Below are positions 9,382 to 24,520 of a DNA stretch of 28,864 bases, in pieces; positions within the stretch are counted from its first letter, which is position 1; every line of letters starts with the position of its first letter. The notes below the pieces were generated by a model that worked only from the letters and a program-made list of their open reading frames with translations, was not told the DNA's origin and made no database searches. The position numbers and the translations under genes are program-made. Origin of the DNA: a virus; the IMG/VR virus record IMGVR_UViG_3300031140_000028, positions 1 through 28,864 of that record. One strand, written 5' to 3'.

Positions 9382-9750
9382 ATGAAAACATTTAACAAAT
9401 ACATTGTCGAAGAATCTATTTCTGAAAACGATATGGAACTAATCAACGAAGGACTACAAGAAGAATGGACTCCGGAATTAGAAGCTAGAATTGATGAAGC
9501 ACTTGCTTTATTTGATGAGCAATACATGAATGAAGATGGTACATATGACATCGAAAGCTTTAACGAAGAAATAACTAATGAAGGATTCTTTGGATCTATT
9601 ATTGGTGGTCTTACTGGATTTGCACTAGGTAAATCAGTTGGTAAGATGGTTGCTAAAGTCCTTGGTATACAAAAGGGTATTATTTACGATTTATTAACCT
9701 CAAGACTTGTTGGTGCCGCATTAGGTGCTAGTCTTGGTAAAAGAATATAA
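9382..9750 (+). CDS. Leader-tagged glycine-zipper internal protein (predicted capsid-packaged)
   Basis: The 122-aa protein starts MKTFNKYIVE, which aligns without gaps to the T4 internal-protein leader MKTYQEFIAE, including the hydrophobic-x-Glu cleavage site at residues 8-10. A second candidate site is LINE (20-23), and a TNE at 65-67 sits right before the next domain. Residues 11-67 are strongly acidic. Residues 68-122 are glycine-zipper-like (GFFGSIIGGLTGFALGKSVG and later GAALGASLGKRI), suited to packing in or against a membrane. I infer a pro-protein packaged in the head with its acidic segment removed by the prohead protease, leaving a membrane-active segment for ejection. A prohead core protein is the main alternative. 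The stop abuts the next ATG. Confidence 0.6.
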   Translation: MKTFNKYIVEESISENDMELINEGLQEEWTPELEARIDEALALFDEQYMNEDGTYDIESFNEEITNEGFFGSIIGGLTGFALGKSVGKMVAKVLGIQKGIIYDLLTSRLVGAALGASLGKRI

Positions 9751-10401
9751 ATGAATTACTTAGCAGTAGACTTTTCCCTCAATTCCCCTGGAATATGCAT
9801 ATATAATGATAAGAGTAAGAACTTTCATTTTATTAGTTACATAAAACCCAAAACAGGTACTAAAGCAGAACAGAGACTTCAAGAAGAGATATCATTATTT
9901 AGTGATGTTACTTTAGTGAGCCAACCAGATTTTACAAATAAAGAATCATTCTCAAGTGCAGAACTTTTAAAGATCAAGCGTTATGATAAGATGGCTGATG
10001 ATATTATTAATTTAGTATTACAGAACTCTCATGATGGTGATGGTTTTACTATAGCATTTGAAGGTACTTCTTATGGTTCTAAAATGGGAACTAACAATAT
10101 GATTGACATGGCGGCTGGCGCTGCAATCCTCAAACTTAAACTTTTAAGAACTTTAAATCCAGAAGATATTCTAACTGTTGCTCCAACCACTATTAAGAAA
10201 TTTGCTGGTAAAGGTAATATGAATAAGCTTCAATTATTTGATGCCTTTCAGCAAAATGTGAACGAAGACCCAGTCTTGGCTAAAAGCCCTTTGTGGAAAT
10301 ACGTTAAAGGTTTGGAAGTTGAAAAGAAGATCCCAAAACCATTGGACGATTTGGTGGATGCTTATTTCTTAGTTGCATACATATCTACACCTCAAGCCTA
10401 A
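9751..10401 (+). CDS. RuvC-like Holliday junction resolvase / RNase H-fold nuclease
   Basis: The 216-aa protein has the RuvC-family acidic layout. It has a first-strand Asp7 in LAVDFSLNSPG, Glu104 in IAFEGTSYGS after a hydrophobic strand, and a C-terminal cluster Asp199/Asp200/Asp203 in LDDLVDAYFL. The central KLKLLRTL and TVAPTTIKKFAGKG segments also fit the RuvC pattern in which a strand ending in P-x-x-x-K precedes the last helix. Such enzymes cut branched DNA as dimers. Here it would resolve recombination and replication intermediates before packaging, the role of endonuclease VII (gp49) in T4. It starts directly after the previous stop and precedes the gp32-primase-UvsY-UvsW set. Confidence 0.75.
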   Translation: MNYLAVDFSLNSPGICIYNDKSKNFHFISYIKPKTGTKAEQRLQEEISLFSDVTLVSQPDFTNKESFSSAELLKIKRYDKMADDIINLVLQNSHDGDGFTIAFEGTSYGSKMGTNNMIDMAAGAAILKLKLLRTLNPEDILTVAPTTIKKFAGKGNMNKLQLFDAFQQNVNEDPVLAKSPLWKYVKGLEVEKKIPKPLDDLVDAYFLVAYISTPQA

Positions 10402-10560
10402 TCTATCTTTGACTTTAAGACATTTATTATATGCACGTGGCGCAAAACTGTTTCATAATTACTAAAAAATAATTAAAAAATAATTAAATAGGCTAGTTTT
10501 GAAACAAACAGAAAGTGTGATATATAATAGGTAGTTAGCAAGATTAACTAAAATATTAAT
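10402..10560 (+). other. Intergenic gap carrying a promoter
   Basis: This 159-base gap has no credible gene; the longest start-to-stop frame I see codes for 13 residues. It is very AT-rich, with direct repeats of AAAAAATAATTA around 10462-10484, and contains the sigma70-like promoter listed separately. It probably separates late structural transcription from the recombination/replication unit. Confidence 0.5.
10499..10528 (+). promoter_or_regulatory. Candidate sigma70-type promoter
   Basis: TTGAAA (10499-10504) and TATAAT (10523-10528) are separated by 18 bases, close to the primary-sigma consensus used by T4-type early genes. It lies 33 bases before the ATG at 10561, in the longest gap of the left half. 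A Bacteroidetes-type TTTG also overlaps the -35 region. AT-rich DNA makes chance matches common. Confidence 0.4.
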
Positions 10561-10743
10561 ATGCAAAAACTAGTTACAATAGATTACTTCCACCTTAATA
10601 AGGTTCTCATAAAAATGGTGAGAAATAACCAGCTTAGTCAAACTGAGCGCGAAGAGTTATTACACAAATCTGGACTGATTAAGTCAGAGAACGGAAAGTG
10701 GAAAGAAGATAATGGAGCTATTTTAACCATGGATAATAAATAA
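10561..10743 (+). CDS. Small hypothetical protein
   Basis: The 60-aa protein starts MQKLVTIDYFHLNKVLIKMV and continues with a Glu/Lys-rich helical segment (SQTEREELLHKSG). There is no signal peptide or membrane segment. It is the first gene after the candidate promoter at 10499-10528 and precedes gp32, a position where T4-like phages often carry small early regulators. I do not recognise the family. It is supported as a gene by its clean start after a promoter-like region and an in-frame stop just before the gp32 leader. Confidence 0.5.
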   Translation: MQKLVTIDYFHLNKVLIKMVRNNQLSQTEREELLHKSGLIKSENGKWKEDNGAILTMDNK

Positions 10744-10833
10744 GTGAAACTTTGCTAAAGTTACATATATAAGTATTGAAAATAATTTCAAGGTAAACAA
10801 TTAAACAATTAACAAACTAAACAATTTAAAGGT
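10744..10833 (+). promoter_or_regulatory. gp32 mRNA leader, candidate autogenous operator
   Basis: The 90-base leader has two small hairpins followed by an A-rich tract. Hairpin 1 is AACTTT-GCT-AAAGTT (10748-10762). Hairpin 2 is TTGAAA-ATAA-TTTCAA (10776-10791). The remaining 40 bases up to the ATG carry repeated AAACAATTAA-like units and no G pairs, so they should be single-stranded. T4 gp32 represses its own translation by binding a leader with a folded 5' element followed by an unstructured A/U-rich stretch over the start site; this leader has the same design. The function is inferred from the layout. Confidence 0.4.
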
Positions 10834-11742
10834 ATGAGCGAATCATTTGACATTTTTAATTTGGGCATCGAAGACGTGGAAACACATCAAGTCCAAGCAA
10901 GTACATCTTCACAAGAGATCTACAAACCATCCGCAGACGACGGAAAAGACGGAACTTACAAAGCACTAATACGTTTTGTACCAAATCCTGAAAATCCTCG
11001 TAATTCACTAATTCAAAAATACGTACACTGGTTAACTAATTCTAGTGGTGACGGTAAATTGGTAGATTCTCCATCAACTATTGGTGAGAAATGCCCTATC
11101 GCAGATGTATTTTGGAAACTACGTAAATCAGATTCAGCAGTAGACCGTAAGTCTTCTGAGAAACTGAAAAGACGTCAACAATACTACGCATTAGTAAAGA
11201 TCATTAAAGATCCACAAAACACAGATTTAGAAGGACAATACAAAATCTTCAAATTTGGTTATAAGATCAAAGAAAAGATCGATGCAGAATTAAAGCCAAA
11301 CTTTGGTGAACCAACTCAAGTATTTGACCTTTTCGAAGGAAAGAACTTTGAATTAGTTATCACTAGACAAGGTGAATATAACAACTATGATACATCTAAA
11401 TTCTCAGCTAGTCAATCAGCGGTAATTATGGGCGATGCACCAGCAGAGCGTAATAAAGAAACTATGACTGCTATTAAAGCAGAATTAGAGTCAGCTCCTT
11501 CATTGAAAGGATATGATTACCAAGCATGGGACGAAGATACAAGGTCATTTGTAAATGACGTATTAAGAATGTATCTTAATCCAGGTGATTCGATCGGTGA
11601 AATGACATCGAGCGCTCCTAGAAAAAAGACTAAAACTGCAACAGCAGTTGCAGAAAAGGCAGCGCCAACTAAAACAGAATCAACTTCAAGTGTTTCAACA
11701 GATGATGATCTAGATTCTTTTTTAGATGACCTTGATATCTAA
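10834..11742 (+). CDS. 32: Single-stranded DNA-binding protein, gp32-like
   Basis: The 302-aa protein matches T4 gp32 (301 aa) in length and order. It has a short N-terminal cooperativity arm, a core with LIRFVPNPE, KRRQQYYALVKIIKDP, EGQYKIFKFGYKI and NYDTSKF, a basic Ala/Thr/Ser-rich linker, and a very acidic tail (DDDLDSFLDDLDI). It coats single-stranded DNA during replication, recombination and repair and recruits partners through its tail. Unlike T4, the zinc-binding set is incomplete: His65 and Cys87 remain, but the positions of T4 Cys77 and Cys90 are not Cys, and Cys87 is the only cysteine in the protein. The gene follows a candidate autoregulatory leader, and its last 17 bases overlap the primase gene. 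Confidence 0.9.
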   Translation: MSESFDIFNLGIEDVETHQVQASTSSQEIYKPSADDGKDGTYKALIRFVPNPENPRNSLIQKYVHWLTNSSGDGKLVDSPSTIGEKCPIADVFWKLRKSDSAVDRKSSEKLKRRQQYYALVKIIKDPQNTDLEGQYKIFKFGYKIKEKIDAELKPNFGEPTQVFDLFEGKNFELVITRQGEYNNYDTSKFSASQSAVIMGDAPAERNKETMTAIKAELESAPSLKGYDYQAWDEDTRSFVNDVLRMYLNPGDSIGEMTSSAPRKKTKTATAVAEKAAPTKTESTSSVSTDDDLDSFLDDLDI

Positions 11743-12802
11743 TATAGAACTTACTGAAGAGTTAAAGGATAAAATAAGATACGCACTTAAACAAGTAGTA
11801 TCTCAAGTACATCCTGAACCTAATAAGAAACTACTTAAAGACATGCATGGGCGTATAACCTGTGCATGTCCTTATTGTGGTGATTCTTATTCGGATGACA
11901 CTAAGAAAAGAGGCAATATATTCTGGGATACTCTACAGTATCATTGTTACAATTGTAGTCATCATACAAATGTTTATACATTTTTAAAAGATCATGATGT
12001 TAAGATGGACACATCTGATGCATCTTTCTTGATCATAGATTACATAAAGCAAAACAAGATACAAGTCAACCCTGAGTCTGTATTAAAGCACCAAGCACTA
12101 GAAAAGGTTCATGAATTAGCAATAGACATTGATACGTTTAAAGTAAAATTCAGAGCAAAATCAATAGTTCCAGGTGATTGGATATGGTTTCAATTGAAAG
12201 ATAGATTATTACACAATAGACTTGACGACTTCTTATATTCAGAAAAAGAACACAGATTGTGGATTTTAAACTTTAGTAAAGATAACAAAATAATAGGTGC
12301 ACAGACGCGTAGGATGAAAGGATATGGCCAGAGATATTTGACATATGATTTACCTAAACTCTATGAAGAAATGGGAGCACCGCTTGAAATGACTAATGAA
12401 GAGTTAAATACTCTTACGAAGATTTCAACATTGTTTGGTATTATGCAATTAAATTTCCAACGGCCTGTTACATTATTTGAAGGACCATTAGATGCAAAGT
12501 TCATGAATAATTCATTAGCGCTTGCAACTGCCGGAAGATCAACTGATGATTTTGATGAAATACCAACTGTCAGATATATGTTTGACAATGATATAACTGG
12601 TAAAAAGAAAATGGCAGAGAAGCTTAAAAAAGGCAGACCTGTATTCATGTGGGCTAAATTCCTTAAGGACAGTAAGTTAGATATATATAATATTAAAGAT
12701 CTAAACGACTTAATGAAGAAATGCTTTGAGCTTAAAATCGATGCTCATAAAAAGATCGATCAATATTTCACTTCAAGTCAATTAGATTTATGGTACGTTT
12801 AA
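11726..12802 (+). CDS. 61: DNA primase (T4 gp61-type)
   Basis: The 358-aa protein has an N-terminal zinc ribbon, Cys48-x2-Cys51 (CPYCGDSY) and Cys74-x2-Cys77 (CYNCSH). A TOPRIM-type catalytic half follows, with Glu252 in LFEGPLDAKF and Asp287-x-Asp289 in MFDNDITGKKK. T4 gp61 is 342 aa with the same order. It makes RNA primers for lagging-strand synthesis together with a hexameric helicase, which is not in this window. It could also be annotated generically as a DnaG/TOPRIM primase. The start overlaps the end of gp32 by 17 bases in another frame, and its end overlaps the next small gene by 13 bases, so translation is probably coupled along this unit. Confidence 0.85.
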   Translation: MTLISNIELTEELKDKIRYALKQVVSQVHPEPNKKLLKDMHGRITCACPYCGDSYSDDTKKRGNIFWDTLQYHCYNCSHHTNVYTFLKDHDVKMDTSDASFLIIDYIKQNKIQVNPESVLKHQALEKVHELAIDIDTFKVKFRAKSIVPGDWIWFQLKDRLLHNRLDDFLYSEKEHRLWILNFSKDNKIIGAQTRRMKGYGQRYLTYDLPKLYEEMGAPLEMTNEELNTLTKISTLFGIMQLNFQRPVTLFEGPLDAKFMNNSLALATAGRSTDDFDEIPTVRYMFDNDITGKKKMAEKLKKGRPVFMWAKFLKDSKLDIYNIKDLNDLMKKCFELKIDAHKKIDQYFTSSQLDLWYV

Positions 12803-13011
12803 TAGATATTAACAACATGGTTGAAGACAGTTTTGATGAATTTCAAAAGGACAGTGACAGATTTAAAGGCATGAAACTCATGATAGATTTTCAGTCATTA
12901 GATCTTAGCGTCAATGCCCCAGAAATTGCATTTCCAAAACCTAAATTTAAGAAGAGGCATATTACTTCAACATTTATAAAACCTAACCCCAACAAGAAAT
13001 CATTATTTTAA
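12790..13011 (+). CDS. Small hypothetical protein between primase and uvsY
   Basis: The 73-aa protein starts MVRLIDINNMVEDSFDEF; a second Met at residue 10 is an alternative start. The C-terminal third is basic and Pro/Lys-rich (FPKPKFKKRHITSTFIKPNP). The gene overlaps the primase end by 13 bases and ends one base before the uvsY ATG, a spacing typical of a real gene in this unit. No family is recognised. The location suggests a replication or recombination accessory role, which is inference. Confidence 0.6.
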   Translation: MVRLIDINNMVEDSFDEFQKDSDRFKGMKLMIDFQSLDLSVNAPEIAFPKPKFKKRHITSTFIKPNPNKKSLF

Positions 13012-13012
13012 T

Positions 13013-13435
13013 ATGAGCAAAGAAAACATATTAGCATTAGATAGGAAGCTGAGCGGTCAAAGAACCGAATGGACTAGAATTATCAAAGGATTAGCTCAAA
13101 GTTTAAGAAACATAAACGAATTAGAGGTAACCATTGCTGAAGTGCTTTCGTCTAGACAATCGCTTGTCGAACAGATGTCATATATAAATATGAAAGTTAA
13201 GGAACAAAAGGCTAAAATAGCCATTAGATATAGAGAAGCATATATCAGATATTACGAGTACGATTACAAGCTTGGTGAAAAGCAGAAAGAAAAGTTTATT
13301 GAAACTGACTTAGCCACTGAAAACATGATATTGTCTCATTTAGAAAATCAAGTAGAATTTTTTAGAGACTCGGTAAAAACCCTAGATAATATGGGATTTG
13401 CCATTCGCAATAGACTTTCATTGAAGGATCTATAA
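13013..13435 (+). CDS. uvsY: UvsY-like recombination mediator
   Basis: The 140-aa helical protein matches T4 UvsY (137 aa) in length and in its C-terminal pattern. ETDLATENMILSHLENQVEF followed by LDNMGFAIRNRLSLKDL corresponds to T4's D-x-x-L-K-V-D-T-S-L-Q-Y-W and SRGFAIKHIQDMR segments. UvsY helps load the UvsX recombinase onto gp32-coated single-stranded DNA. The neighbouring gene is uvsW, exactly as in T4, which makes the assignment strong although sequence identity looks low. UvsX is not in this window. Confidence 0.8.
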   Translation: MSKENILALDRKLSGQRTEWTRIIKGLAQSLRNINELEVTIAEVLSSRQSLVEQMSYINMKVKEQKAKIAIRYREAYIRYYEYDYKLGEKQKEKFIETDLATENMILSHLENQVEFFRDSVKTLDNMGFAIRNRLSLKDL

Positions 13436-13460
13436 CGATAAATAAAAATGCTCTTACAAT

Positions 13461-14969
13461 GTGGAGCTTAGTTTAACTGAAAACAAGCAGCTGCTTCGTA
13501 TTGACGACGCAACTGAACTAGAATTAGAACAACTCAATATATCTTTGAATAAAAGAATTGAGTCATGGCGATTTAACCCTCTGGTTAAAAAGGGACTATG
13601 GGATGGATACGTATCATATATTAAAGATGATAAGTGGATTCCTGCTGGTTTATGGAGAGAAGTCATGGGTATATGCAAGGACTATAAGTTTGAGTTTAAA
13701 CTTAATGGTATTGCAGAGATATTTGATACTGGTATTAATCAAGAAAGATTTAACGAATGGGCTTTAGCATTCTTTGATAAATCGGAAATCAAACCGAGAG
13801 ATTATCAATTAGAAGCAGCCTTCAATATATTAAAATTCAAAAGATGTTTAAGTGAATTGGCGACTTCTGCCGGTAAAACACTTATATCATTCCTAACCGT
13901 AGCATACTTATTAGAACACGAAAAAGCAAAGAAAATACTTTTTATAGTACCTAATGTTTCATTGGTATTACAAGCCAGTGAAGATTTCTTAGATTATAAT
14001 TATAGAAATGCTATAGATATTAAAGTACAACAAATTTATAGTGGCCAAAAATTAAGACCAGGTAGAAACGTTATTATTGGTACATATCAATCACTTGTCA
14101 AAAAGGATAAAGCATACTTTGCAGAATTCGATGCAGTTATTGTAGATGAGACACATAAAGCAAAATCTGCTTCAATTAAAACAATCTTACAAAAATGTCT
14201 TAACGCTGATTACAAATTTGGATTGTCAGGTACAATACCAAAAGAAGGTACATTAGACAGACTGACATTAATGGCATATACTGGCCCTTTGATTACAGAG
14301 ATCAGTGCAAACTATTTACAAAATGAAGGGTATATTGCTCATTGTAAAGTAAAGGTTATAAAAATGGATTATGCACCACAGTCAACTAAGGATGCGTTCA
14401 GAGAAATGTCACAGAATAGATATGAATCAAAAGATGTATATAAGTTTGAGCAAAACTATGTGATTAACTCACCAGGACGTCTTAATTTCATAACTAATAT
14501 CATTTCTAAAGTAAAAGGTAATGGTTTAGTTTTATTCCATCGAATTGAACATGGTAAAAAGATATACGAAAAGTTACGTCAAGAAAGTAATAAGACTGTA
14601 TATTATGTTGATGGTGGAATTGACAAAGATGTTAGAGAAGAACACAAAAAGAAAATGGAAGCAGGTGAAGAGGTTGTTATTGTTGCATCTTATGGAACTT
14701 TCTCAACAGGTATTTCTATTAACAAAATACACAACATATTCTTTACAGAATCATTTAAATCAGAAGTTGTAATTAGACAATCAATTGGTCGTGGATTAAG
14801 ACAACACTCATCAAAAGACTTTGTAAACATCATTGATTTCGTAGATGATCTAAGCTCACCTGATTGGGATAATTATCTAATGAGACATTCTAAAGAAAGA
14901 CAACGAATCTACAGGGAACAGAAGTTCCAGTACGATATAAAAAATGTGGATTTTGAAGGAGATATATAA
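13461..14969 (+). CDS. uvsW: UvsW-like DNA/RNA helicase
   Basis: The 502-aa superfamily 2 helicase has Walker A TSAGKT (135-140), Walker B DETH (229-232), the SGTI motif III, and motif VI QSIGRGLRQHSSK near the C-terminus. The N-terminal domain carries ESWRFNPLVKKGLWDGYVSY, which parallels T4 UvsW's FNPRFRYGNWDGRI. UvsW unwinds branched DNA, drives fork regression and branch migration, and removes R-loops, switching the phage from origin-dependent to recombination-dependent replication. The start is a GTG: the only nearby ATGs (13448, 13459) are in other frames and stop within a few codons, while the GTG begins a sensible N-terminus. Confidence 0.92.
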   Translation: MELSLTENKQLLRIDDATELELEQLNISLNKRIESWRFNPLVKKGLWDGYVSYIKDDKWIPAGLWREVMGICKDYKFEFKLNGIAEIFDTGINQERFNEWALAFFDKSEIKPRDYQLEAAFNILKFKRCLSELATSAGKTLISFLTVAYLLEHEKAKKILFIVPNVSLVLQASEDFLDYNYRNAIDIKVQQIYSGQKLRPGRNVIIGTYQSLVKKDKAYFAEFDAVIVDETHKAKSASIKTILQKCLNADYKFGLSGTIPKEGTLDRLTLMAYTGPLITEISANYLQNEGYIAHCKVKVIKMDYAPQSTKDAFREMSQNRYESKDVYKFEQNYVINSPGRLNFITNIISKVKGNGLVLFHRIEHGKKIYEKLRQESNKTVYYVDGGIDKDVREEHKKKMEAGEEVVIVASYGTFSTGISINKIHNIFFTESFKSEVVIRQSIGRGLRQHSSKDFVNIIDFVDDLSSPDWDNYLMRHSKERQRIYREQKFQYDIKNVDFEGDI

Positions 14970-15006
14970 TAAAATAATAACTACATACAAAAATAAAAAT
15001 AATATT

Positions 15007-16593
15007 ATGCAAAAATTAAAATCTTTTGAACAATATGCCACAGAGGCAAAGATTTCAAATGCTAGAACAGTAGAAGAAGACGCTTCTACAAAAAGATCAA
15101 ACGAAGCAGAAACTTACAAGAATTTATTATCTGAATTCAAAGTTACATCTGTAAAAGAATTAACAGAAGATCAAAGATCTGATTTTTTCATCAAGCTAAG
15201 GGATTCAGAAGTTAATGAAGCACTTTCACTTATTGAAGAAGGTACAAGAGGTCAGTTTGGTAAAATTGACAAAAAAGGTAATATCACTTCAGTTTATACT
15301 CATTATGATTCATATCCAGAAAACATTTTACCACTTCTTCAAAAAGATTACAAAAACGGTAAAAACGTTGACGATGTAATTAAAAGAGGAGATAGTTCTG
15401 GTTTAGATGCTATGAATAAAATGAATTTCTATGGAGATAATAGTAAACCATCTACAGGAAGCATATCTAATATTTCTAAATATCTAAGAGATGCAAATGA
15501 TAAAGGTGGAGCAGAATTTGTTTATTTATGGGATGAAGGTAATAAAGAATGGTTAATGGCAGATCTTTACGGTAAAGGTCACGATGACGTATATCCTGCA
15601 TTCGAATCACTTTCAGCTTCAGTAAATGAAGCAATTAAAGTAGAATATAAAAGAGACGCTAAAAAAGTAGCTACTGTTTATAATAATTTATTCGCTAAGA
15701 AATTAACTGATTTAGGTGCAATGTCTAAAGAAGGTAAATTAGGTTGTATTAAATACTTATTTGAAATGGCAATGGAAGACGCAAACTTTTCAAGAGAAGG
15801 TTTCAAGATTTCTAAAAACATTAAAGGATCAATTAAAAGCTTTGAAATTAAAATGTCAGGCTTAGGTAATTATTTCGTTAAGATTGGTGCAACAACAACT
15901 AAGAGAGTATTAGATCAATATTATTCAGATCTTGCAAATGCAGCAAGTTGGGCAGGTATTAGTATTGTAGAAGGTACAGCACTTTATTTAGAGAGCATGA
16001 AAGAAGAAGCAGCAGGTCAATCATTATTAAATGCATTTAATATGGCATTTGAAGGTAATGAAAATATATGCGAAGCAACTGCAGTAATGGATGCAATTGA
16101 TCCTAAATCTAAAGGACTTGCAAAATTACTAAAGAAGAATAAAGTTACAATGGAAATATTGGATATGAACGGACCATCTGGTCATCCAGAAGTTGAACTT
16201 ACAGGAAAAAGAAAAGATATAACAGCAGTACTCGCAGATGACGAATATGGATGGGATGACGCTGACTTGGCAGAATACATCGAAGAATCTAAAGTCAATG
16301 AAGATATTAAGTGTTCAAATAAAAAAGGACATTCATATAAAGAAATAGACAAAGACGGAACAGTAGAATGTGAACACTGTGGTTTAAGAAATTCATTATC
16401 GGAAGCAGAAATTACTGAAGCTGAAGTTTCTTCAATTGAAGACTTTCAAGAATATGCAACTACTGTATTGAAAAAAGCATTCGGTGAAGAATTTGACGAA
16501 GCAAAGGCACAAAAGGTAATTGATGGCATTTTAGCTAAATCTGATGGAGATTACGGAACAGCAGTTGGAATCTTAACAAACTCATTAGGTTAA
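15007..16593 (+). CDS. Leader-tagged multidomain internal protein with GTR/HYDSYPE domain and zinc ribbon
   Basis: The 528-aa protein begins MQKLKSFEQYATE, matching the packaging-leader pattern with a candidate cut after Glu13. The upstream extension to 14944 is rejected because it lies inside the uvsW end and lacks the leader. Residues about 78-185 carry GTRGQF...THYDSYPENILPLL...VIKRGDSSGL, which resembles a widespread phage/bacterial family of unknown function with GTR and H-x-DGYPE motifs. A helical central region follows. After ESKVNE (cut candidate after Glu432) comes a ribbon with Cys436, His442, Cys455 and Cys458, then an acidic helical C-terminus. Repeated V-N-E sites between domains suggest processing in the prohead. 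Function unknown. Confidence 0.7.
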   Translation: MQKLKSFEQYATEAKISNARTVEEDASTKRSNEAETYKNLLSEFKVTSVKELTEDQRSDFFIKLRDSEVNEALSLIEEGTRGQFGKIDKKGNITSVYTHYDSYPENILPLLQKDYKNGKNVDDVIKRGDSSGLDAMNKMNFYGDNSKPSTGSISNISKYLRDANDKGGAEFVYLWDEGNKEWLMADLYGKGHDDVYPAFESLSASVNEAIKVEYKRDAKKVATVYNNLFAKKLTDLGAMSKEGKLGCIKYLFEMAMEDANFSREGFKISKNIKGSIKSFEIKMSGLGNYFVKIGATTTKRVLDQYYSDLANAASWAGISIVEGTALYLESMKEEAAGQSLLNAFNMAFEGNENICEATAVMDAIDPKSKGLAKLLKKNKVTMEILDMNGPSGHPEVELTGKRKDITAVLADDEYGWDDADLAEYIEESKVNEDIKCSNKKGHSYKEIDKDGTVECEHCGLRNSLSEAEITEAEVSSIEDFQEYATTVLKKAFGEEFDEAKAQKVIDGILAKSDGDYGTAVGILTNSLG

Positions 16594-16612: not shown

Positions 16613-17896
16613 ATGAAACAATTTCTATCATATCAACAATTTCTAGTTGAAAAAGTAAACGTATCTATATTAGACGACTTAATTGTTGAAGGCGGTGCAG
16701 CAGGACACATGTCGCATCCTTTCGATGAAAGAGATTTAACATTTGGAGACTTTAAAGAGATCATAAGTGCAGGACTTTCTGGTAATTTAACATTCGATGA
16801 AGAGCCTACAGAAAAAACGGATGGTCAAAATGTATTCGCTACAGTACAAGACGGAGAAGCTAAATTTGCAAGAAACAAAGGTGATATGAAATCTCCAATG
16901 TCGTTAGCAGATTTTAAACAGAAGTTTGAAGGACATCCTAGTCCATTAGTACAAGATACATTTCAATTTGCTGCTGAAGATTTAGCACAAGCATTGATAA
17001 AATTACCAAGTAAAGATTTAGAAGTGTTTAACAACGGTAAGAGTTTCATGAATATGGAATTGATTTACTCTAAGAACCCTAATGTAATTTACTATGATCG
17101 CGATATAATCCAATTTCATGGAATTAAGCACACTGACGGTGAAGGTAATATAATCGGTGACGATAACAAATATGCATCTTCAATTGCTAAAGCTCTACAA
17201 AAAGTTAAGGCAGATGTTGGTAATACATTTACTGTAATTCCACCCCAAATCGTTAAGATAGGAAAGGATATTGATTTTGAAAAGAACAAAGATAAATTCA
17301 TCAAAAAAGTAGAAGACTTAAAAGCTGTATATAAATTAACAGATGCTGATGAAGTTTCTAGATATCACGAAATGTGGTGGAGAGATCAAATAGAATCTAA
17401 TTTCCCAGATATATCGCAAGATCAAAAAGAAGGTCTATTATTAAGATGGGCATATGGTGATAAAAAGACGCTTAATTTAAGATCTCTTGATAAAGATCTT
17501 GGAAAAGATAAAGCAGCAGCCATTAAGAAATTTGACAAGGAAGATGTTAAAAAGAAATACAAAGAAAACATTAGACCTTTCGAGGATTTATTCTTAGAAC
17601 TTGGAAGTGTTATTCTTAAAAATGTAAGTAACTTTGTTGCTGCAAATCCAAGTGATGAAATGCAAAGGTTACATACTCAAATTAGAACAGAGGCTGACAA
17701 GGTTAAAAAGGGTGGAGATATTAAACAAATAGAGAAAGTTGTTTCAGAACTTGAAAGACTTGAACGAATCGGAGGTATTGAATCTATTATACCAACTGAA
17801 GGTATTGTTTTCATATATAAAGGTAAAACAATGAAACTTACAGGAACATATGCTGCGATAAATCAGCTAATGGGTATTATAAAATACGGTAGATAA
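16613..17896 (+). CDS. Leader-tagged nucleic-acid-ligase-like nucleotidyltransferase
   Basis: The 427-aa protein starts MKQFLSYQQFLVE, a packaging leader with a hydrophobic-x-Glu site at 11-13 and a second, LIVE-GG, at 23-26. Residues 67-71 are EKTDG, the K-x-D-G active-site motif of ATP-dependent ligases, with Lys68 the expected AMP-accepting residue. KFARNKG (84-90) follows, FMNMELIY (145-152) resembles motif III, and EGIVFIYKGKTMKL (396-409) resembles motifs IV and V. The opening GHMSHPFDERDLTFGDFKEI is shared, as I recall, with an uncharacterised marine-phage family (possibly DUF6267). Its substrate is unknown. The unusual point is the leader, which predicts that the enzyme is carried inside the capsid. 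Confidence 0.65.
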   Translation: MKQFLSYQQFLVEKVNVSILDDLIVEGGAAGHMSHPFDERDLTFGDFKEIISAGLSGNLTFDEEPTEKTDGQNVFATVQDGEAKFARNKGDMKSPMSLADFKQKFEGHPSPLVQDTFQFAAEDLAQALIKLPSKDLEVFNNGKSFMNMELIYSKNPNVIYYDRDIIQFHGIKHTDGEGNIIGDDNKYASSIAKALQKVKADVGNTFTVIPPQIVKIGKDIDFEKNKDKFIKKVEDLKAVYKLTDADEVSRYHEMWWRDQIESNFPDISQDQKEGLLLRWAYGDKKTLNLRSLDKDLGKDKAAAIKKFDKEDVKKKYKENIRPFEDLFLELGSVILKNVSNFVAANPSDEMQRLHTQIRTEADKVKKGGDIKQIEKVVSELERLERIGGIESIIPTEGIVFIYKGKTMKLTGTYAAINQLMGIIKYGR

Positions 17897-17905
17897 TTAA
17901 GATAC

Positions 17906-17919: not shown

Positions 17920-17943
17920 TAAATACTGAATACAAAAAACACT

Positions 17944-19791
17944 ATGGCTTTACAAAACTTAAGAACGTATTATCAATCATCTAACATCAATGACTTCGTG
18001 TCAATGTTAGATATTCCATGTGTCGTATCAGAAAAGATACAAGCGTCATCTTTCCATGTTAAAAGAACTAAAACAGGGTTTGAATACTTCAAAAGTGGTT
18101 CAAAACATGCAATGGACAGAGTAGACAGGACGATGATTAAATACTATGAAAGTGGTATTAAGTATTTCAATACTATATTAACAGAATTGACTGAAGATAT
18201 GCCATTGGATTGGAAGTTTGGATTTGATTATATGTTAGATAATAAAACGGTAGATATTGAATACGATGCTTTACCCAAAAATCATTTAATATTAACACAT
18301 ATTCAAATATTAAAACCAAATGATTTAACACAAGTCAAAAAGGTTATTAGAGATCCTGTTATTTTAAATAAATGGGCAGATCTATTAGGAGCACAAAGAC
18401 CTCCTGTTATATTCCAAGGTAAACTACAATCTAATCAAAAGGATGATCTACTTAATCTTCTAGAAATATCAGATAAAGATTTTGAAATCAAATACGGATC
18501 ACAATCTTTTACAAGAACAATATACAACATATTCAACAATGGACTTAATACTCCAGCGTTAAATCATTCATTAGATAATGACATTGATGGTTTAATAATT
18601 AATTTCTCTGATGGTAAAGGCATGAAAAGCTTTAAATTGGAGAGATTTGATAGAAAGCCACAAGAAGCAAGAAAACCATCTGATATGTACCAACTTTCAA
18701 TTTTGGATTTGGTAGAATTTATTACTGCGTTTGACATTACTGCTATTAAGTTAGAAGAAGAAGAGGCTGATTCAAGATACATTGAAATAATCTCTAATAT
18801 ATTTAATGCGTATGTTGAAAAGAACGCAACAAAATATGTCGGCACTAATTTCAACTCTGCAGATTTTTCAGAAAGGAAAGGTTTTGAACTTAATAAAGTA
18901 TTCATAAAAAATGAAAAGACTTTATCATTAGTTCAGAATGAAATCTTATCAGAATTATTTAAAATTGCTTTAGGCAGTTTTAGAAAAACAAGACACAAAG
19001 AAACTGACATCATTAATAAAGATTTAATGAATCAGATCAATTCAATAGTAGATGCTATTGAAACGTCAGTTATGGCGAAAACCAATGAAAATGATGTTAT
19101 GAACTTTAAATCATATTTAGTTAATCAAAAACTGCAGTATACAGAAACTCCAATATTAGAAGCATTGACAGTTAATTATCCAGAACAAGGTAAAACACCA
19201 GTTAACATGTTTGTTGGTAGATTTCAACCGTTTACATTAGGACATATTAAAGTTATAGAAACAATTCACAAACAGAATGGATTTCCTGTTGTAATATTCT
19301 TAGTTAAGTCTAAGACTAAAAAAGCAGAAGATGCATTTAAGAGACCATTCGACGAAGAAACACAAGTCGAAATGATTAAGAATCTAAAAAGCAAATATCC
19401 TATAGAAGAAGTATTTGTAATACCGACAGGCGGAATTGATCACATGTTTAATGCAATGAGACCTAAATACGAACCAGTATTATGGGGAACTGGAAGTGAT
19501 AGAATGAAAACTTATGGATTCCAAGTAAATAAAGATTCTTATAGAGAAGATCTTGGCGTTAGACCTGATTTCGGATTATATGAAATACCAAGAACAGGTA
19601 AAAACATTTCAGCAACACAGGTTAGAAACGCAATGTTAGATGACGATGAGAAGTTGTTTAAGAAGCTTACACCGAAACCAATACATAACATGTATAAAGA
19701 ATTAAAAGCTAAATTAGAAGAGTCCATGGGAGTCGTAACAGAATCAGAAGACGACACTTTGACATTTGATGAATTTATCAAAAATATATAA
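17944..19791 (+). CDS. Ligase-like domain fused to NMN-adenylyltransferase-like domain
   Basis: The 615-aa protein has two nucleotidyltransferase halves. Residues 1-240 look like a diverged RNA/DNA-ligase core. EKIQASSF (30-37) stands at motif I with Lys31 as nucleophile but without the usual Asp-Gly; DWKFGFDYM is at motif III, NDIDGLIINF (about 209-218) at motif IV, and KSFKLERF at motif V. After a helical linker, residues about 419-600 form a Rossmann nucleotidyltransferase with GRFQPFTLGH (a T-x-G-H variant of HxGH) and ISATQVR (an ISxTxxR motif), as in NadM/NadR-type NMN adenylyltransferases. It has no N-terminal packaging leader. Possible roles are NAD synthesis or repair coupled to RNA/DNA end joining; this is inference. 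Confidence 0.7.
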   Translation: MALQNLRTYYQSSNINDFVSMLDIPCVVSEKIQASSFHVKRTKTGFEYFKSGSKHAMDRVDRTMIKYYESGIKYFNTILTELTEDMPLDWKFGFDYMLDNKTVDIEYDALPKNHLILTHIQILKPNDLTQVKKVIRDPVILNKWADLLGAQRPPVIFQGKLQSNQKDDLLNLLEISDKDFEIKYGSQSFTRTIYNIFNNGLNTPALNHSLDNDIDGLIINFSDGKGMKSFKLERFDRKPQEARKPSDMYQLSILDLVEFITAFDITAIKLEEEEADSRYIEIISNIFNAYVEKNATKYVGTNFNSADFSERKGFELNKVFIKNEKTLSLVQNEILSELFKIALGSFRKTRHKETDIINKDLMNQINSIVDAIETSVMAKTNENDVMNFKSYLVNQKLQYTETPILEALTVNYPEQGKTPVNMFVGRFQPFTLGHIKVIETIHKQNGFPVVIFLVKSKTKKAEDAFKRPFDEETQVEMIKNLKSKYPIEEVFVIPTGGIDHMFNAMRPKYEPVLWGTGSDRMKTYGFQVNKDSYREDLGVRPDFGLYEIPRTGKNISATQVRNAMLDDDEKLFKKLTPKPIHNMYKELKAKLEESMGVVTESEDDTLTFDEFIKNI

Positions 19792-19810
19792 TAAAACAAA
19801 CAAATTAAAA

Positions 19811-21256
19811 ATGGATACATTTGACAATCACATAAATGAAAATTTCGAAGTACATTATTCTGATGGGATAAGAGCTGCAAAAAAGTTTAAATCAGAAAAA
19901 GATGCAAGAGCATTCATGTCTGATGCTATAGAAAACAAAAAAGGTTTACAAGAAATTGCAATTTACAAAGCAGGTTCTGGATTCCATTCTACTGCAGATA
20001 CTAAGGCAGTTATTTCTTTTTGGGGAGAAGGTTCTTATTTAGATAACGTTTCTAAAAAAGATTCTAAATTAGCAGCTAAGAAATTAGAAGAGTCATTAAC
20101 TGAAAGACACATCACAGTAAAACGAAAGTATACTGAAAATCACCCAGCAGTTAAAGTTGGTAAAGCAGCTAAAATCAGAAACAAAGTTTTAGAAGCTATC
20201 AAAGATGGTAAAATTACCAAAGAAGAATTCAATACGATTTTAAGAGAAATGACTACGGATTCTGGCAGATGGATGAGAAGAAACTCTACTTATTTAAATG
20301 TAAGCGAAGATGGAATTACACTTTCTAAAACAGGTAAAAGAGTACTTAACGAATTAACTCCGGTTATAAATACACCAGATATTAATGAAAAGGCAAGTGC
20401 TTTTAAAATAGCAAATGCAAATGCAGAAGAAATATTCGGAGAATTCGGAATAGCAACATTATCATATGATGAGATTGCAAGAGTAATAAACATAAAGAGA
20501 GCTGACAAATTAGCCAAAAAATACGGTGAAGACAGTTTTATGGCATTAACCGAATTAGATATGGAAGAGCTTTTAAACAAGAATCCAAAATTAGTAATAG
20601 AAAATAAACAAAACAATAACATGAAAACAAATTTTATATTTGAAAGCTTTAAAGAATTCACAGAATCTTTAAACGAGGCTACAAGAAGTCGTTTTAACAT
20701 CAAGTCGTTAAAAATTGGAAAAAGACAATTTCCATTTCCAGGTATTAAAGAAACAGTAAAGTCATTGTGGAATGAAGAAGTTGAAGATTATAAGAATCCA
20801 ACTAGTATGGATTATATGAATAATCCTTCAGATTTAAAAAAGGTAAAATCAGCAATTTTAAAAGGTGTTAATGCTAACCTAAAGGAACAGATTCGTGCTG
20901 AATGGACAAATGGAGGCGAGGAGCTAGAACTTTCATTAGAATTGAAACATCGTGATTTCATTAGAGTTACATTAAGAACTGGTCGATTCCAAGAATATTG
21001 GAAAGATATGCTTAAAGCCGAAGTAATTTCTACTAGATATTCAGGTAGAGGTAACTATCCAGAAACAACTGATGTTGGAAAGGGCTCAGTTTCACCAAAT
21101 TCAATTATAATATATTTAAGAGAAGATGGCGAATATGGTAAGCAGATAAACCACATGCACCGCGCAGTATCGGACATTCTTGATGTATCGGAATCGGTTA
21201 TTGATTTTTACAATGGTATACCTCAGATTGCAATAATTGGCTCAGAATCAGATTAA
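19811..21256 (+). CDS. Apparent fusion of two leader-tagged internal proteins
   Basis: The 481-aa product starts MDTFDNHINE, a leader variant with a cut candidate after Glu10; the start at 19766 is rejected because it lies inside the preceding gene and misses the leader. Residues 11-264 form a mostly helical, Lys/Glu-rich unit of unknown family. Then comes a short Asn/Gln/Lys stretch (ENKQNNN), whose DNA looks like an ordinary A-rich intergenic spacer, and at Met271 a complete second leader ending ESLNE (cut candidate after Glu289). Residues 290-481 form a second unknown unit. The simplest reading is two genes fused in frame by loss of a stop, with the prohead protease able to separate them again. 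Independent initiation at 20621 is also possible. Confidence 0.7.
   Translation: MDTFDNHINENFEVHYSDGIRAAKKFKSEKDARAFMSDAIENKKGLQEIAIYKAGSGFHSTADTKAVISFWGEGSYLDNVSKKDSKLAAKKLEESLTERHITVKRKYTENHPAVKVGKAAKIRNKVLEAIKDGKITKEEFNTILREMTTDSGRWMRRNSTYLNVSEDGITLSKTGKRVLNELTPVINTPDINEKASAFKIANANAEEIFGEFGIATLSYDEIARVINIKRADKLAKKYGEDSFMALTELDMEELLNKNPKLVIENKQNNNMKTNFIFESFKEFTESLNEATRSRFNIKSLKIGKRQFPFPGIKETVKSLWNEEVEDYKNPTSMDYMNNPSDLKKVKSAILKGVNANLKEQIRAEWTNGGEELELSLELKHRDFIRVTLRTGRFQEYWKDMLKAEVISTRYSGRGNYPETTDVGKGSVSPNSIIIYLREDGEYGKQINHMHRAVSDILDVSESVIDFYNGIPQIAIIGSESD
20621..20677 (+). other. Internal packaging leader (second leader in fused ORF)
   Basis: Codes for 19 residues starting MKTNFIFESFKEF and ending TESLNE. 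It shares 15 of 19 residues, and an identical 20-base stretch GAATTCACAGAATCTTTAAA, with the N-terminal leader of the next gene (21298). It is preceded by AAACAAAACAATAAC, the same kind of A-rich DNA that precedes true starts here. Confidence 0.65.
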
Positions 21257-21297
21257 AATCATATTAAAAACAAAACAATAAACAAAACAATATAAAC

Positions 21298-22290
21298 ATG
21301 AAACACAAATTTTTATTCGAATCATTCGAAGAATTCACAGAATCTTTAAATGAATCATTTGCTTCAGCTATATTAGCGGGCATATTAACAGGTAAAGGCT
21401 CTAAAGCTGACAAATCATTAACTAAGGCATTTTATGGTAAAACTAAATTAGCGTTAGACAAAGTACAAGATGAAGATATTATAGTGACTGATCCAATGAC
21501 AGCATATAAAGAGAAGTCTGATAACGCAATCGTATTTTATATTTCAGATAATCAAAAAGAAAATCCATATGCACCAAGCGACGCATACGAAAGTAGCAAA
21601 GTTATACCAGGTGGAGGTTATTTATTAGCACTTGCATCGGGAGATAATAGTTTTTATGAAAACACATGGAAAAGAGGATTGATTAGAACAGGAAATAATC
21701 CAGCAGATTCCATAGGTATTTCTAAGAAGTATAAAGGTTGGGATGCAACGGGACTTTATAATGTTAAAAGAATTGCAGAAGTTGCTGATAGAGCAATTGT
21801 AATCAATTTAACATTATTACAACAAAAATATTCAACAGCGAACATAAGAGCTGAAAGAAATTCTGCTAAATCAGGTGCAATCGCATTCAAATCTGATAAA
21901 GATTTCAAATCTGATAACATGACAAGATACCAAGAAATTTTAGCAACTAAAGCTTCAAAATTACCATTAGACAAAATGGTTGCAGATGCAATTGATTCAT
22001 TAGCAGAACAAATCAAATCTGGATTAAAGTCTGGTGAAAAAACAAGATATGGTGATCCGATGATTGGTAAATCATCAAAAGGTAAAGAAGTTAAATTAAG
22101 AGATGCTTCTCAGCACATGAACAATATATTAGATGACTACTCTAGATATGCTGATTATGTTAGACAAGAAGAAGATGAAATCAAAGCATATGGTAAAGCT
22201 TCTAATTGGTATGGTAAATCTGCAAAAGAATATGCAAAAAGATGTGCTGATAATATCAAGAAAATTGAAGACATGACATACGCTTGGTAA
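21298..22290 (+). CDS. Leader-tagged internal protein, paralogue A
   Basis: The 330-aa protein starts MKHKFLFESFEEF with the cut candidate ESLNE at Glu19. The mature part begins SFASAILAGILTGKG. It aligns along its length with the next gene: KLALDKVQDEDII, YSTANIRAERNSAKSGAIAF, DKDF...RYQEIL, PLDK and a helical C-terminus all have counterparts there. The conserved Y-S-T-x-N block with Asp/Glu-Arg and Lys-rich stretches does not match an enzyme family I know. T4 internal proteins include host-shutoff and anti-restriction effectors, so an effector role after ejection is plausible but not shown. The leader DNA upstream contains two AAAACAAT-type repeats. Confidence 0.7.
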   Translation: MKHKFLFESFEEFTESLNESFASAILAGILTGKGSKADKSLTKAFYGKTKLALDKVQDEDIIVTDPMTAYKEKSDNAIVFYISDNQKENPYAPSDAYESSKVIPGGGYLLALASGDNSFYENTWKRGLIRTGNNPADSIGISKKYKGWDATGLYNVKRIAEVADRAIVINLTLLQQKYSTANIRAERNSAKSGAIAFKSDKDFKSDNMTRYQEILATKASKLPLDKMVADAIDSLAEQIKSGLKSGEKTRYGDPMIGKSSKGKEVKLRDASQHMNNILDDYSRYADYVRQEEDEIKAYGKASNWYGKSAKEYAKRCADNIKKIEDMTYAW

Positions 22291-22320
22291 TAAAACAATA
22301 ATAAAACAATAATAAAACAG
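22291..22320 (+). repeat. 11-bp tandem repeat in intergenic leader
   Basis: Two copies of TAAAACAATAA plus the start of a third (TAAAACAG) fill the gap between the two paralogues, ending two bases before the ATG at 22323. Similar AAAACAAT units precede the ATG at 21298 and the internal leader at 20621. They probably form the A-rich, SD-free translation start region used in Bacteroidetes. Confidence 0.7.
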
Positions 22321-22322
22321 AT

Positions 22323-23372
22323 ATGAAACACATTAAATTATTTGAACAATTCATAAACGAATCAGATTCATCATTAAACGAAGCATTTGCTTCTACTAAA
22401 TTAGCAAATATATTAACAGGTGCTAATAAATTACCAGAAGGTCTTCCAGCTGCATTTTACAAAATGACTAAACTTAAATTAGATAAAATAAAAGATGAAG
22501 ATATCATCGAATTGGATCCAATGGTTGCTAGGAGAGAAAAACGAGCAAACGCAGTATACATGTACTTTGTAACAGATGAAAAAGAAAACGATTACCATAT
22601 ACAAAATCCATATGATAAAGATGAAGAAATATCAATATACAACGGTGGTATTATTCCAGCAAATACTTTATTGGCAATTACTAATGTAGATAATAAATGG
22701 ATGAATATTGATTGGGCTAAAGATAATAAATACACACGACATGGTTCTAACCTTAAATATGCAACTATTGTACCTGATGTTGATGGACATCAAGAACTTC
22801 AACAATCTAAAAGGAAAGATTCAGCAGGAATCGACAAAGGAAATACAGGTCTAGATACTGTTATGAAAGTAGCAAGAACTGCAGATATATGCTATTGTCT
22901 TGATTTAGATATTCTTACTGCAAGATATTCTACGGTAAACCTTAAAGATGAAAGAAAAGCTGCTCAGAAAGGAGCAACTGCATTCATATCAGATAAAGAC
23001 TTTAGAAAACAAACACATGCAAGATATCAAGATATCATAGCAGATCGAGCTCTTGCAATGCCACTTGATAAGAAAGTTAAAGAAGCGACAGAATTAATAG
23101 GTGAGATTATTGCAAACGCAAATGCTCGCGGACATAGAGATTCGAAAGGTGATATTCTGATAGGTACTGGTAGCCATAAATATAAAATATCAGGTATTTT
23201 GCAACACATGGACTTTCTATTGAATAGATTTTCAACATATGTACATTACACTGATCTAGATGCGCACGAATATAACGCTGGTTATGATATGGCATATCAT
23301 AAAAGAAATATAAAAGATTGTGCCAAGAAGGTTTGGGATAGTATTAAAGACATTAAAAGATACCAAAAATAA
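22323..23372 (+). CDS. Leader-tagged internal protein, paralogue B
   Basis: The 349-aa protein starts MKHIKLFEQFINE (cut candidate after Glu13) with a second site SSLNE at Glu20. The mature part then begins AFASTKLANILTG, closely matching paralogue A (SFASAILAGILTG). Shared blocks include KLDKIKDEDII, YSTVNLKDERKAAQKGATAF, DKDF...RYQDII, and MPLDKK. Divergence is substantial, so the duplication is old or the proteins evolve fast. Paralogue B has an extra segment around residues 95-150 and a different C-terminus (NAGYDMAYHKRNIKDCAKKV). No family recognised. As with its twin, delivery with the phage DNA is inferred from the leader. Confidence 0.7.
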   Translation: MKHIKLFEQFINESDSSLNEAFASTKLANILTGANKLPEGLPAAFYKMTKLKLDKIKDEDIIELDPMVARREKRANAVYMYFVTDEKENDYHIQNPYDKDEEISIYNGGIIPANTLLAITNVDNKWMNIDWAKDNKYTRHGSNLKYATIVPDVDGHQELQQSKRKDSAGIDKGNTGLDTVMKVARTADICYCLDLDILTARYSTVNLKDERKAAQKGATAFISDKDFRKQTHARYQDIIADRALAMPLDKKVKEATELIGEIIANANARGHRDSKGDILIGTGSHKYKISGILQHMDFLLNRFSTYVHYTDLDAHEYNAGYDMAYHKRNIKDCAKKVWDSIKDIKRYQK

Positions 23373-23379
23373 AACAGTT

Positions 23380-23700
23380 ATGAAACGCACTAAATTATAC
23401 GAGGAATTTATCTCAAAGAAAACAGTAACAGAAGGTAGAAAAACAGTAGATCCTTCTACATTCGGAGATGATAAATTATCATATGACGATCAATTTAGAG
23501 GAAACACTTCATTGGCACAATCTCTTTCTTCAGATCTAGGATTTGATCCTAAAAAACCATGGTCAGAAGGAATTGGATTTGATAGTACAGATATGTACGC
23601 TTCCGGTAAAAAAGATGGAACTGTTTTATCAAATGCATTATCTAGTAAGTTCACATATGCTGAGTTATTAGACGCAGCTAAAAAGTTTTTAGAAGCTTAA
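23380..23700 (+). CDS. Small leader-tagged internal protein
   Basis: The 106-aa protein starts MKRTKLYEEFISKKTVTE; the candidate cut is after Glu18 (V-T-E). The frame is open upstream to 23320, but that region is inside paralogue B and lacks the leader, so 23380 is the start. The mature part (GRKTVDPSTFGDDKL onward) is soluble and Ser/Asp/Lys-rich, ending in an amphipathic helix (AELLDAAKKFLEA). The stop is one base before the next ATG. No family recognised. Confidence 0.65.
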   Translation: MKRTKLYEEFISKKTVTEGRKTVDPSTFGDDKLSYDDQFRGNTSLAQSLSSDLGFDPKKPWSEGIGFDSTDMYASGKKDGTVLSNALSSKFTYAELLDAAKKFLEA

Positions 23701-23701
23701 T

Positions 23702-24520
23702 ATGTCAGATATTAGCAAAAAATTAACAGAAACAGTTTCAACCGCAGCAATGTCAGGTATGGGTCCAGTAGAATTACCGGGCAACGGAACATTAGGTTCT
23801 GGTGATGTACCAGCTGGTAGTGGCGATGCCGAAGAAGAATATAAAAAGAAAAAGAAAAGAATGAAACACTTAAAAACATTAGAATCTTTCATATCAGAAG
23901 GAGTAAATCTTAAACAATCTCATTTGTCATCTGAAGATTATCAAAAAGCTAAAAAACTTAAAGGTTTTGATGAAGCTGATTGGGAATGGAACGGAGATAA
24001 AGGACTTTATTCTAAAGTAAACGAATCTAGAGTTGATAAAACTTCAGATCAAGATAGAATTTATTATGACTTTCTATTAACACTAAGAGATTCTGGTAAA
24101 ACCAATATGTTTGGTGCAGCTCCATATTTACAAAAAGAGTTTGATCTTAGTAAAAGCGAAGCAAGAAATGTATTAGCAGAATGGATGAAATCATTTAATG
24201 AATCTAAAGTTAATGAAGCAGATGCTCAAAAACCAAGAGGCATAGATCAATTTGCAGAAGATATGGAATCTGATAAGATGAATCCAGAAATTCATTTAGC
24301 TACATTTAGTGGTAAATCATTCAAAGCACAATCAACTGATAAAACATGGGAAGACGGAGTACCTGTAACTAAGAACTTCACAAGAGGTGGTTATAAGTCT
24401 ACGAGTCCTAAAGGAGAACACTATATAATTGAAACAGATAGATTCTGGTATTTCGTTATAGGAAGAATGTGGTTCGCTGTTAAAAGAGCAGATTACGGAA
24501 CACCTCCATTTGAGTATTAA
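23702..24520 (+). CDS. Two-part protein with internal packaging leader
   Basis: The 272-aa product has a 53-residue front part (MSDISKKLTE...AMSGMGPVELPGNG...GSGDVPAGSGDAEEEY then KKKKKR) followed directly by MKHLKTLESFISE, a full leader with a cut candidate after Glu66. Translation could also begin at that internal ATG (23861), which has an A-rich stretch upstream. The rest contains LYSKVNE and ESKVNE, two more V-N-E sites, around a helical domain, and ends in a beta-rich domain (HYIIETDRFWYFVIGRMWF). Cutting at all sites would release three or four pieces. It is the last gene before a strong terminator. No family recognised. Confidence 0.65.
   Translation: MSDISKKLTETVSTAAMSGMGPVELPGNGTLGSGDVPAGSGDAEEEYKKKKKRMKHLKTLESFISEGVNLKQSHLSSEDYQKAKKLKGFDEADWEWNGDKGLYSKVNESRVDKTSDQDRIYYDFLLTLRDSGKTNMFGAAPYLQKEFDLSKSEARNVLAEWMKSFNESKVNEADAQKPRGIDQFAEDMESDKMNPEIHLATFSGKSFKAQSTDKTWEDGVPVTKNFTRGGYKSTSPKGEHYIIETDRFWYFVIGRMWFAVKRADYGTPPFEY
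23861..23899 (+). other. Internal packaging leader (second copy type)
   Basis: Codes for MKHLKTLESFISE in frame inside the 23702 gene. It follows a Lys-rich stretch encoded by almost pure A/G DNA, which could serve as an SD-free start region. The spacing L7-x-x-F10-I-x-E matches the N-terminal leaders elsewhere in the window. Confidence 0.6.

Follow-up and report, generated by a model that had tools for sequence, protein, structure and literature searches.

The IMG/VR virus record IMGVR_UViG_3300031140_000028, analysed here in its entirety (28,864 bases, GC 31.7%; hereafter the window), contains a cohort of genes that open with a short leader peptide of common design, an aromatic pair followed by a terminal [ILV]-x-E, and it is very likely that these leaders represent a greatly expanded form of the T4-type capsid-targeting propeptide system, in which one tag is carried by dozens of body families. 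To judge from its sequence, the window's virus is a T4-type phage. Three longer records of it (L001, L002 and L003) share a 100% identical protein encoded at 16613 and a letter-identical reading frame at 19811, and G002, the L003 record (149,989 bases), matches window position 9382 at its own position 69918. PHROG matches include a tail tube protein, a RuvC-like protein, a gp32-like single-stranded DNA-binding protein, a primase and a helicase, and in G002 gp20, an S77-family prohead protease and gp23 follow each other in T4 order, as in a myovirus of the T4 superfamily.

The search for leaders covered nine of 16 long records, comprising the window's virus and eight relatives (G001, G005, G007, G009, G011, G014 and G015 stood outside these counts), and its strict pattern was M[KRQ]x(1,5)[FYL]x[EQDNKS][FY][ILVAT]xE. 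Matches at open reading frame (ORF) starts numbered eight in G002, five in the first 80 of the 94 kb of G003, six in G004, nine in G006, five in G008, seven in G010, nine in G012, 21 in G013 and 18 in G016, that is 88 of 1783 ORFs against 0.9 expected in all (column permutation among ORFs gave means of 0.05-0.19 per record and a maximum of 3), so that the further members expected by the original prediction from a genome-wide motif search do exist. Kinship among the records means that these 88 matches are not independent, and a better measure of spread is the number of body families: when any start in the first 40 residues is admitted there are 100 leaders, whose bodies fall into 52 families (BLASTP, 1e-4), 28 of them single, or 51 families without a probable false pair. 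As the window itself had served as template for the pattern, a second test picked ORFs by residues 1-5 alone (MK[HK][IV][KQ]). The triad F/Y7, F/Y10 and E13 was present in 49 of the 63 ORFs thus selected, against 49 of the 1720 others, which include leaders with different starts (Fisher p=3.8e-55, ORFs taken as independent); by position, the frequencies were 0.95 vs 0.15 for F/Y7, 0.95 vs 0.13 for F/Y10 and 0.81 vs 0.09 for E13. The spacing of the two halves is likewise constrained, with [LIV]xE at +3 from the aromatic pair in 89 of 136 core-bearing ORFs, against 2.8 in shuffled sequences. A +6 distance occurs in 10 ORFs (2.6 shuffled): two G002 genes, four members of a single orthologue group (SLQE) and four leaders of the ordinary type in which the core had been assigned too close to the start.

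Within the window, strict matches number three among 28 first-ATG ORFs (column permutation predicts 0.04), and there are in addition the leader at the second ATG of 15007 and an internal one at 23861. All nine peptides of the original prediction are present, seven at or near ORF starts and two in frame inside longer ORFs (all on the + strand). MKTFNKYIVE (9382..9411), ten residues with the exact T4 spacing, starts a 122-residue protein (9382-9750) with a glycine-zipper-like C-terminus (a Gly-zipper match falls under the Pfam cut-off); its orthologues fit the strict pattern in seven of the nine long records and begin MKTFLELIKE and MKTFVDYMKE in the other two. MQKLKSFEQYATE (15007..15045) starts a 528-residue protein (15007-16593) whose frame is open from an ATG at 14944 too, and MKQFLSYQQFLVE (16613..16651) starts an RNA-ligase-like protein (16613-17896). 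By a relaxed leader pattern, Glu is kept in 76 of 80 orthologues of the latter (271 were found), with Asp in two and an internal leader by first-ATG calling in two. MDTFDNHINE (19811..19840), which starts the frame 19811-21256, had been credited with exact T4 spacing, like 9382, but has His rather than F/Y at T4 position 7; relatives begin their counterparts MNFNEFLNE, MNFNQFLNE, MNFDQFLNE, MNFKSFLSE or MSTFDKYLNE. The same frame contains the internal leader MKTNFIFESFKEFTESLNE (20621..20677). Next come MKHKFLFESFEEFTESLNE (21298..21354), which has a displaced cut site and starts a 330-residue protein (21298-22290), MKHIKLFEQFINE (22323..22361), which starts a 349-residue paralogue of it (22323-23372), MKRTKLYEEFISKKTVTE (23380..23433), whose cut site is displaced by five and which starts a 106-residue protein (23380-23700), and the internal MKHLKTLESFISE (23861..23899), which follows a GSGDAEEEYKKKKK stretch within the ORF 23702-24520. 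The core had been placed at residues 7-13 in most leaders; it lies there only in 15007, 16613, 22323 and internal 23861, and in 21298 and 23380 the aromatic pair occupies 7 and 10 but [LIV]xE comes later, at residues 17-19 and 16-18, respectively. Nor are all bodies unrelated, since 21298 and 22323 are paralogues (37% identity), and the 9.5 kb ascribed mostly to tagged genes also holds 17944-19791, which has a C-terminal cytidylyltransferase domain (PF01467, 2e-10) and no leader; its listed orthologues likewise begin MALQ. In predicted models the leaders have a predicted local distance difference test (pLDDT) score below 50 (residues 1-20 of 22323 and 1-32 of 16613; mean pLDDT 73.7 and 67.0, respectively). 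Counting displaced sites, the window's virus has at least 17 ORFs that begin with a leader (10600, 13796, 23892, 24589, 25007, 25356, 69918, 75543, 77149, 80347, 81834, 82859, 83916, 95512, 96605, 110912 and 114992 in G002), and there are three internal copies in addition.

What is conserved is the peptide and not the DNA, since codons vary synonymously (L6 is TTA in 36, CTA in 29 and CTG in two cases; E13 is GAA in 59 and GAG in 28); upstream stretches, 45 of 87 compared by eye, have no common sequence beyond an occasional GATATATA. Among the 100 leaders, 87 are 13-mers with the consensus MKHIKLFE[EQD]F[ILV]NE/[ASKG], where the slash marks the predicted cut. In an alignment of 72 leaders (one or two per family, two that cross piece ends and two probable false hits being left aside) invariance is limited to M1 and E13, with K2 and F10 reaching 90%; the search pattern itself partly dictates the last two residues and Glu. 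Scanning IMG/VR with all codings of MKHIKLFE[EQ]F[IV]NE returned 87 matches in 83 stretches (80 loci), and the 80 sufficiently long bodies form 34 families. One family illustrates how the tag may be present or absent on the same body: it is tagged in G002, G006 and G008 and untagged in G010, G013 and G016. The untagged G010 protein starts M/GRSKYDSL, and the corresponding stretch of its tagged G006 counterpart is MRHIETYNDFINE/GRSKYDGL; the 150 nt upstream of the G010 ORF contain no leader in the three frames of the same strand. An untagged orthologue that begins at the predicted cut point supports that point indirectly. The body of G016 24872 recurs in G013 and G012 at the C-terminal end of a longer protein, with the junction LDE/AVKF.

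A gp21-like protease, which the original prediction placed elsewhere in the genome, lies in G002 between the portal and capsid genes. There, the portal gene (109292; Portal_T4, E 7.2e-74) is followed by a gene for a 112-residue leader protein (110912), the protease (111307-113367; Peptidase_S77, E 1.9e-11), gp23 (113482; E 9.8e-47) and, beyond gp23, a second leader protein, MKLKSKLKLYEQFVNE (114992). T4 has the order 20, 67, 68, 21, 22, 23, so that 110912 occupies the gp67/68 slot. The gene in this slot bears a leader in six of six genomes (FITE/D, FIKE/A, FIKE/N, KIDE/A, SLQE/D and SLQE/D), and hence the prohead-core position is itself tagged. Its orthologues (FITE/DAMRAGEDS, SLQE/DAIDAGEDS, KIDE/AAIDAGGDS) vary in the spacing of the two halves of the leader, and [LI]xE always stands directly before the body. 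Of the 16 long records, 12 have an S77 match (PF03420), that of the window's virus among them, and the four others gave no gp23 match either; G004 breaks off inside its portal gene, and no portal was detected in G011, G014 and G015. Thirty leader-bearing records, mostly the larger ones, were chosen from the exact-codon scan, of which 20 have gp23 and 18 have S77; among those of at least 76 kb the figures are 18 of 18 and 17 of 18 (the miss is G021). Two side observations concern this cluster. In G012 an additional leader gene (MKYIQLFEGFLNE; 119080-119352) lies between the protease and capsid genes, and a second, short S77 match above the cut-off is found in a 132-residue frame of G016 (156418-156672), and likewise in G018 and G019.

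The protease ORF (638-734 residues) is in all six genomes a fusion of the protease, in which LGELDHP and SSR are the counterparts of LGELNHP and SSR in T4 gp21, with a long acidic scaffold tail. This tail contains heptapeptides such as YSEHVAE, YAESLAE, YTEHVAE, FANYLAE and YAEYIAE, often spaced by 14 residues, which resemble the leader core F-E-E-F-I-N-E. By the strict core of the leader there are 3-5 of them per protein (0.03-0.07 shuffled), and 5-7 (0.04-0.09 shuffled) when the pattern is widened after inspection, in six of six. The presence of several similar heptapeptides in the fused scaffold suggests that the leaders are detached scaffold repeats, each imitating one of them. Separately, a domain of the window's 15007-16593 protein (DPKSKGLAKLLKKNKV...) recurs in the G006 protease-scaffold (104769), with 44% identity over ~125 residues. 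A model can be outlined in which the basic and aromatic half of the leader, M-K-x-[IV]-K-L-[FY]-E-x-[FY], would bind the prohead core, probably by mimicking one scaffold repeat, and the S77 prohead protease would cut after the second half, [ILV]-x-E, removing the leader and freeing the body inside the head. The bodies would then be packaged with the DNA and likely injected. A more general version, which we put forward tentatively and which may prove right or somewhat more readily wrong, is a head-delivery system that genes enter by acquiring one detached scaffold repeat with its own cutting site, the head being a dock for dozens of interchangeable effectors (anti-CBASS proteins, directed against the cyclic oligonucleotide-based antiphage signalling system, and protein-modifying enzymes) and for polyproteins whose internal tags allow them to be cut apart in the prohead.

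Could the shared peptide be only a recognition site for the S77 protease, with the aromatic pair as a protease contact and head entry or cutting achieved otherwise? Such a site would suit the adjacency of the two halves in most leaders and the leader-like scaffold heptapeptides, which have [IVL]AE at their ends too and should likewise be cut. This explanation is nevertheless improbable. The halves are apart in the 110912 orthologues, and a CxxC...CxxC zinc-ribbon-like stretch seems to part the aromatic half from a proposed displaced site (ISE, LSE or LGE) in G010 (2844), G003p (79184) and G004 (85019). T4 itself has separated halves: internal protein (IP) IPI reads MKTFKEFTSTTTPVSTITE/AT (MKTFKEF...ITE/AT), its gene encodes 95 residues and the mature form has 76 (PMC3012670, in the portion available), so that the cut falls after E19. 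For IPIII, the accessible text of PMC9026906 reports that targeting depends mainly on residues 4 and 7 and processing on residues 8 and 10, that the gp21 site is L/I-X-E, and that Asp at position 10 blocks processing and leaves targeting intact; residues 4, 7, 8 and 10 match the corresponding columns of the present leaders. Moreover, a short protease site would not extend to the conserved MK[HK][IV][KQ] start. A signal unrelated to the head (for the host membrane, translation start or protein stability) would sit well with leader genes being found genome-wide, beyond the head cluster, but we consider it more doubtful still in view of the invariant terminal Glu of the 72 aligned leaders, the match to T4 IPs, the tagged gp67/68 slot, the co-occurrence with gp23 and S77 and the likeness to scaffold repeats. 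Least credible of all is a mobile or regulatory DNA element at gene starts, with the peptide as a by-product. Many starts are near-identical and some leader genes stand in tandem, as such an element might produce; it is already disfavoured by the mixed codons and by upstream stretches alike only in an occasional GATATATA.

A capsid-targeting propeptide system does, however, leave several observations poorly accommodated. Fourteen of the 63 prefix-selected ORFs lack the full triad (they include displaced sites and a few without a clear site), and the starts MKHVKLFEEFRADLKDE and MKKVKLFEEFNSDSK have no clear cut site. Displaced sites, sought within 25 residues in the 47 core ORFs without a +3 site, are barely above chance (24 of 47 vs 18.1 +/- 3.1 shuffled). 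Two of the 100 pattern hits (G013 37276 and G016 178347) look like membrane proteins and are probably false. The orthologues of 114992 are irregular, with FEEFAE in G006, FEEFTE in G008 and another start in G012 and G016, and T4 gp22 has no heptapeptides of the scaffold type, which leaves scaffold mimicry without a T4 precedent. The named relatives sampled are also sparing with the tag. Judged by gp23, the closest of them are LR756500 (462 kb; 51.5%) and the Prevotella Lak phages (37%). Strict leaders were found in one of 92 ORFs of LR756500 (100 kb), one of 55 of LR756501 and none of 42 of Lak-A2 (50 kb each), and the portal and protease genes of LR756500 have no leader gene between them. To judge from these samples, the expansion belongs to the window's clade. 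Mel-JY01 has none in the 33 of its 190 kb that were covered, despite a prohead protease and capsid genes, and by this comparison S77 alone does not bring leaders. LR756500 does keep the leader MKFLKSYEEFLNE/N on its 16613 homologue and scaffold-type heptapeptides (YVKYVAE, YMEHIAE and YTQYVKE).

The two internal leaders of the window, preceded by 286 (20621) and 56 (23861) open codons, have counterparts elsewhere. A leader like that at 20621 lies inside a long ORF in seven relatives, and one like that at 23861 follows GxGDAEEEYKKK in G006 (77169) and G004 (23157); in all, nine strict matches lie deep inside ORFs (0.78 shuffled), one of which is a scaffold repeat. Such copies may reflect fusions, internal starts or polyproteins that are processed in the prohead.

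Most tagged bodies match no named family, and no leader protein of the window exceeded a Pfam cut-off (only untagged 17944 did). Among PHROGs, 15007 matches phrog_1987, of unknown function, and 16613 has a weak RNA-ligase match (E 0.009). The KTDGQ of 16613, invariant in 22 aligned sequences, is presumably the KxDG motif of RNA ligases and nucleotidyltransferases. When its model (pLDDT 67) was compared with known folds the first 17 matches were ligases, at Z scores of 4.7-6.5 that are under the tool's caution level of 8; the best Foldseek match was weak (E 0.12) and the sequence had no match in the PDB. By motif and a modest fold match, the protein may thus be called ligase-like. Its Mel-JY01 homologue lies within a protein annotated as cytidylyltransferase-like, the domain of the neighbour 17944. 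No solved relative of the 22323 model was found at E 0.001 or better. In G002, 25007 encodes a GNAT body and 10600 an ATP-grasp-like body (CPSase_L_D2 and Dala_Dala_lig_C above cut-offs). Tagged bodies in G013 (2454) and G016 resemble Acb1, the anti-CBASS nuclease that we take to be T4 57B (PF23474, 31.5 and 31.3 bits, cut-off 27); they have two HxT motifs (HCT and HMT), both also present in the G010 orthologue, and their best Acb1 match in the PDB has an E-value of only 0.013. The few recognisable bodies are likely enzymes suited to counter-defence or host modification.

Other features of these genomes deserve mention. The word GATATATA, a candidate late promoter, precedes 17 of 174 G002 ORFs at a distance of at most 40 nt (0.6 expected), including portal, protease and leader genes. 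In the window it is found at 9370 (9370..9377, + strand, ending 4 nt upstream of the 9382 ATG), 3556, 10519, 12680 and 14961. As it is only mildly commoner before leader genes (17 of 100 vs 155 of 1683 others), it was not used as evidence. Window ORF 3621-5279 encodes a tail-fibre-like collagen protein with a Hint/intein-like end after TPTATPT repeats (Hint E 0.008 and intein E 0.003, both below cut-off), possibly a self-cleaving fibre, and ORF 5332-5904 contains long TPTATPT and TPTPTATPSQSIIATFA repeats.

Because their bodies share nothing, the proteins injected by uncultured phages are mostly unknown. A readable tag would yield candidates directly from sequence, from several to more than 20 per record, among them likely counter-defence enzymes that would act before phage gene expression. 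The scaffold repeats offer a concrete and testable explanation for the way in which a short leader could locate the prohead core, and the tag could be used to load proteins into such heads.

Among openly licensed papers, in the portions available and including PMC3012670 and PMC9026906, no such tagged cohort is reported. The closest known parallel is provided by IPI, IPII and IPIII of T4, which have in common with the present leaders an aromatic pair three residues apart, a terminal [IL]xE, unrelated bodies and an S77 protease encoded between the portal and capsid genes. The strict pattern, which matches none of 186 ORFs of lambda and none of 145 in P-SSM2 (50 of 252 kb, head genes not covered), retrieves IPII, IPIII (MKTYQEFIAE) and gp61.1 from ~145 of the 169 kb of T4. 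As a side observation, gp61.1 (L171 18966-19130, - strand), which starts MKTFKEFIKEDMVAG, is a candidate T4 internal protein. The differences lie in design and scale: leaders here are usually 13 residues long (87 of 100) rather than 10, with a basic MK[HK][IV]K start, and the window's virus has at least 17 tagged ORFs, whereas T4 has IPI-III and perhaps gp61.1 in 145 kb. Internal copies in fused ORFs and a scaffold with similar heptapeptides also distinguish the present system. G002 110912 is comparable to T4 gp67 and gp68 by gene position alone, as it bears a leader and they do not match the leader pattern. The protease shares its S77 family and the LGELNHP/LGELDHP and SSR motifs with gp21, although here it forms one ORF with a heptapeptide tail where T4 has gp21 and gp22. 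The Acb1-like protein, encoded in G013, G016 and G010 rather than in the window, is leader-tagged here and predicted to arrive with the DNA. Finally, in phiKZ, 201phi2-1 and SPN3US many head proteins are cut after Glu by a gp21-like protease and some are ejected; the phiKZ sites are S/A-X-E and the accessible text of PMC9026906 describes no shared short tag, whereas the present tag recurs almost unchanged.

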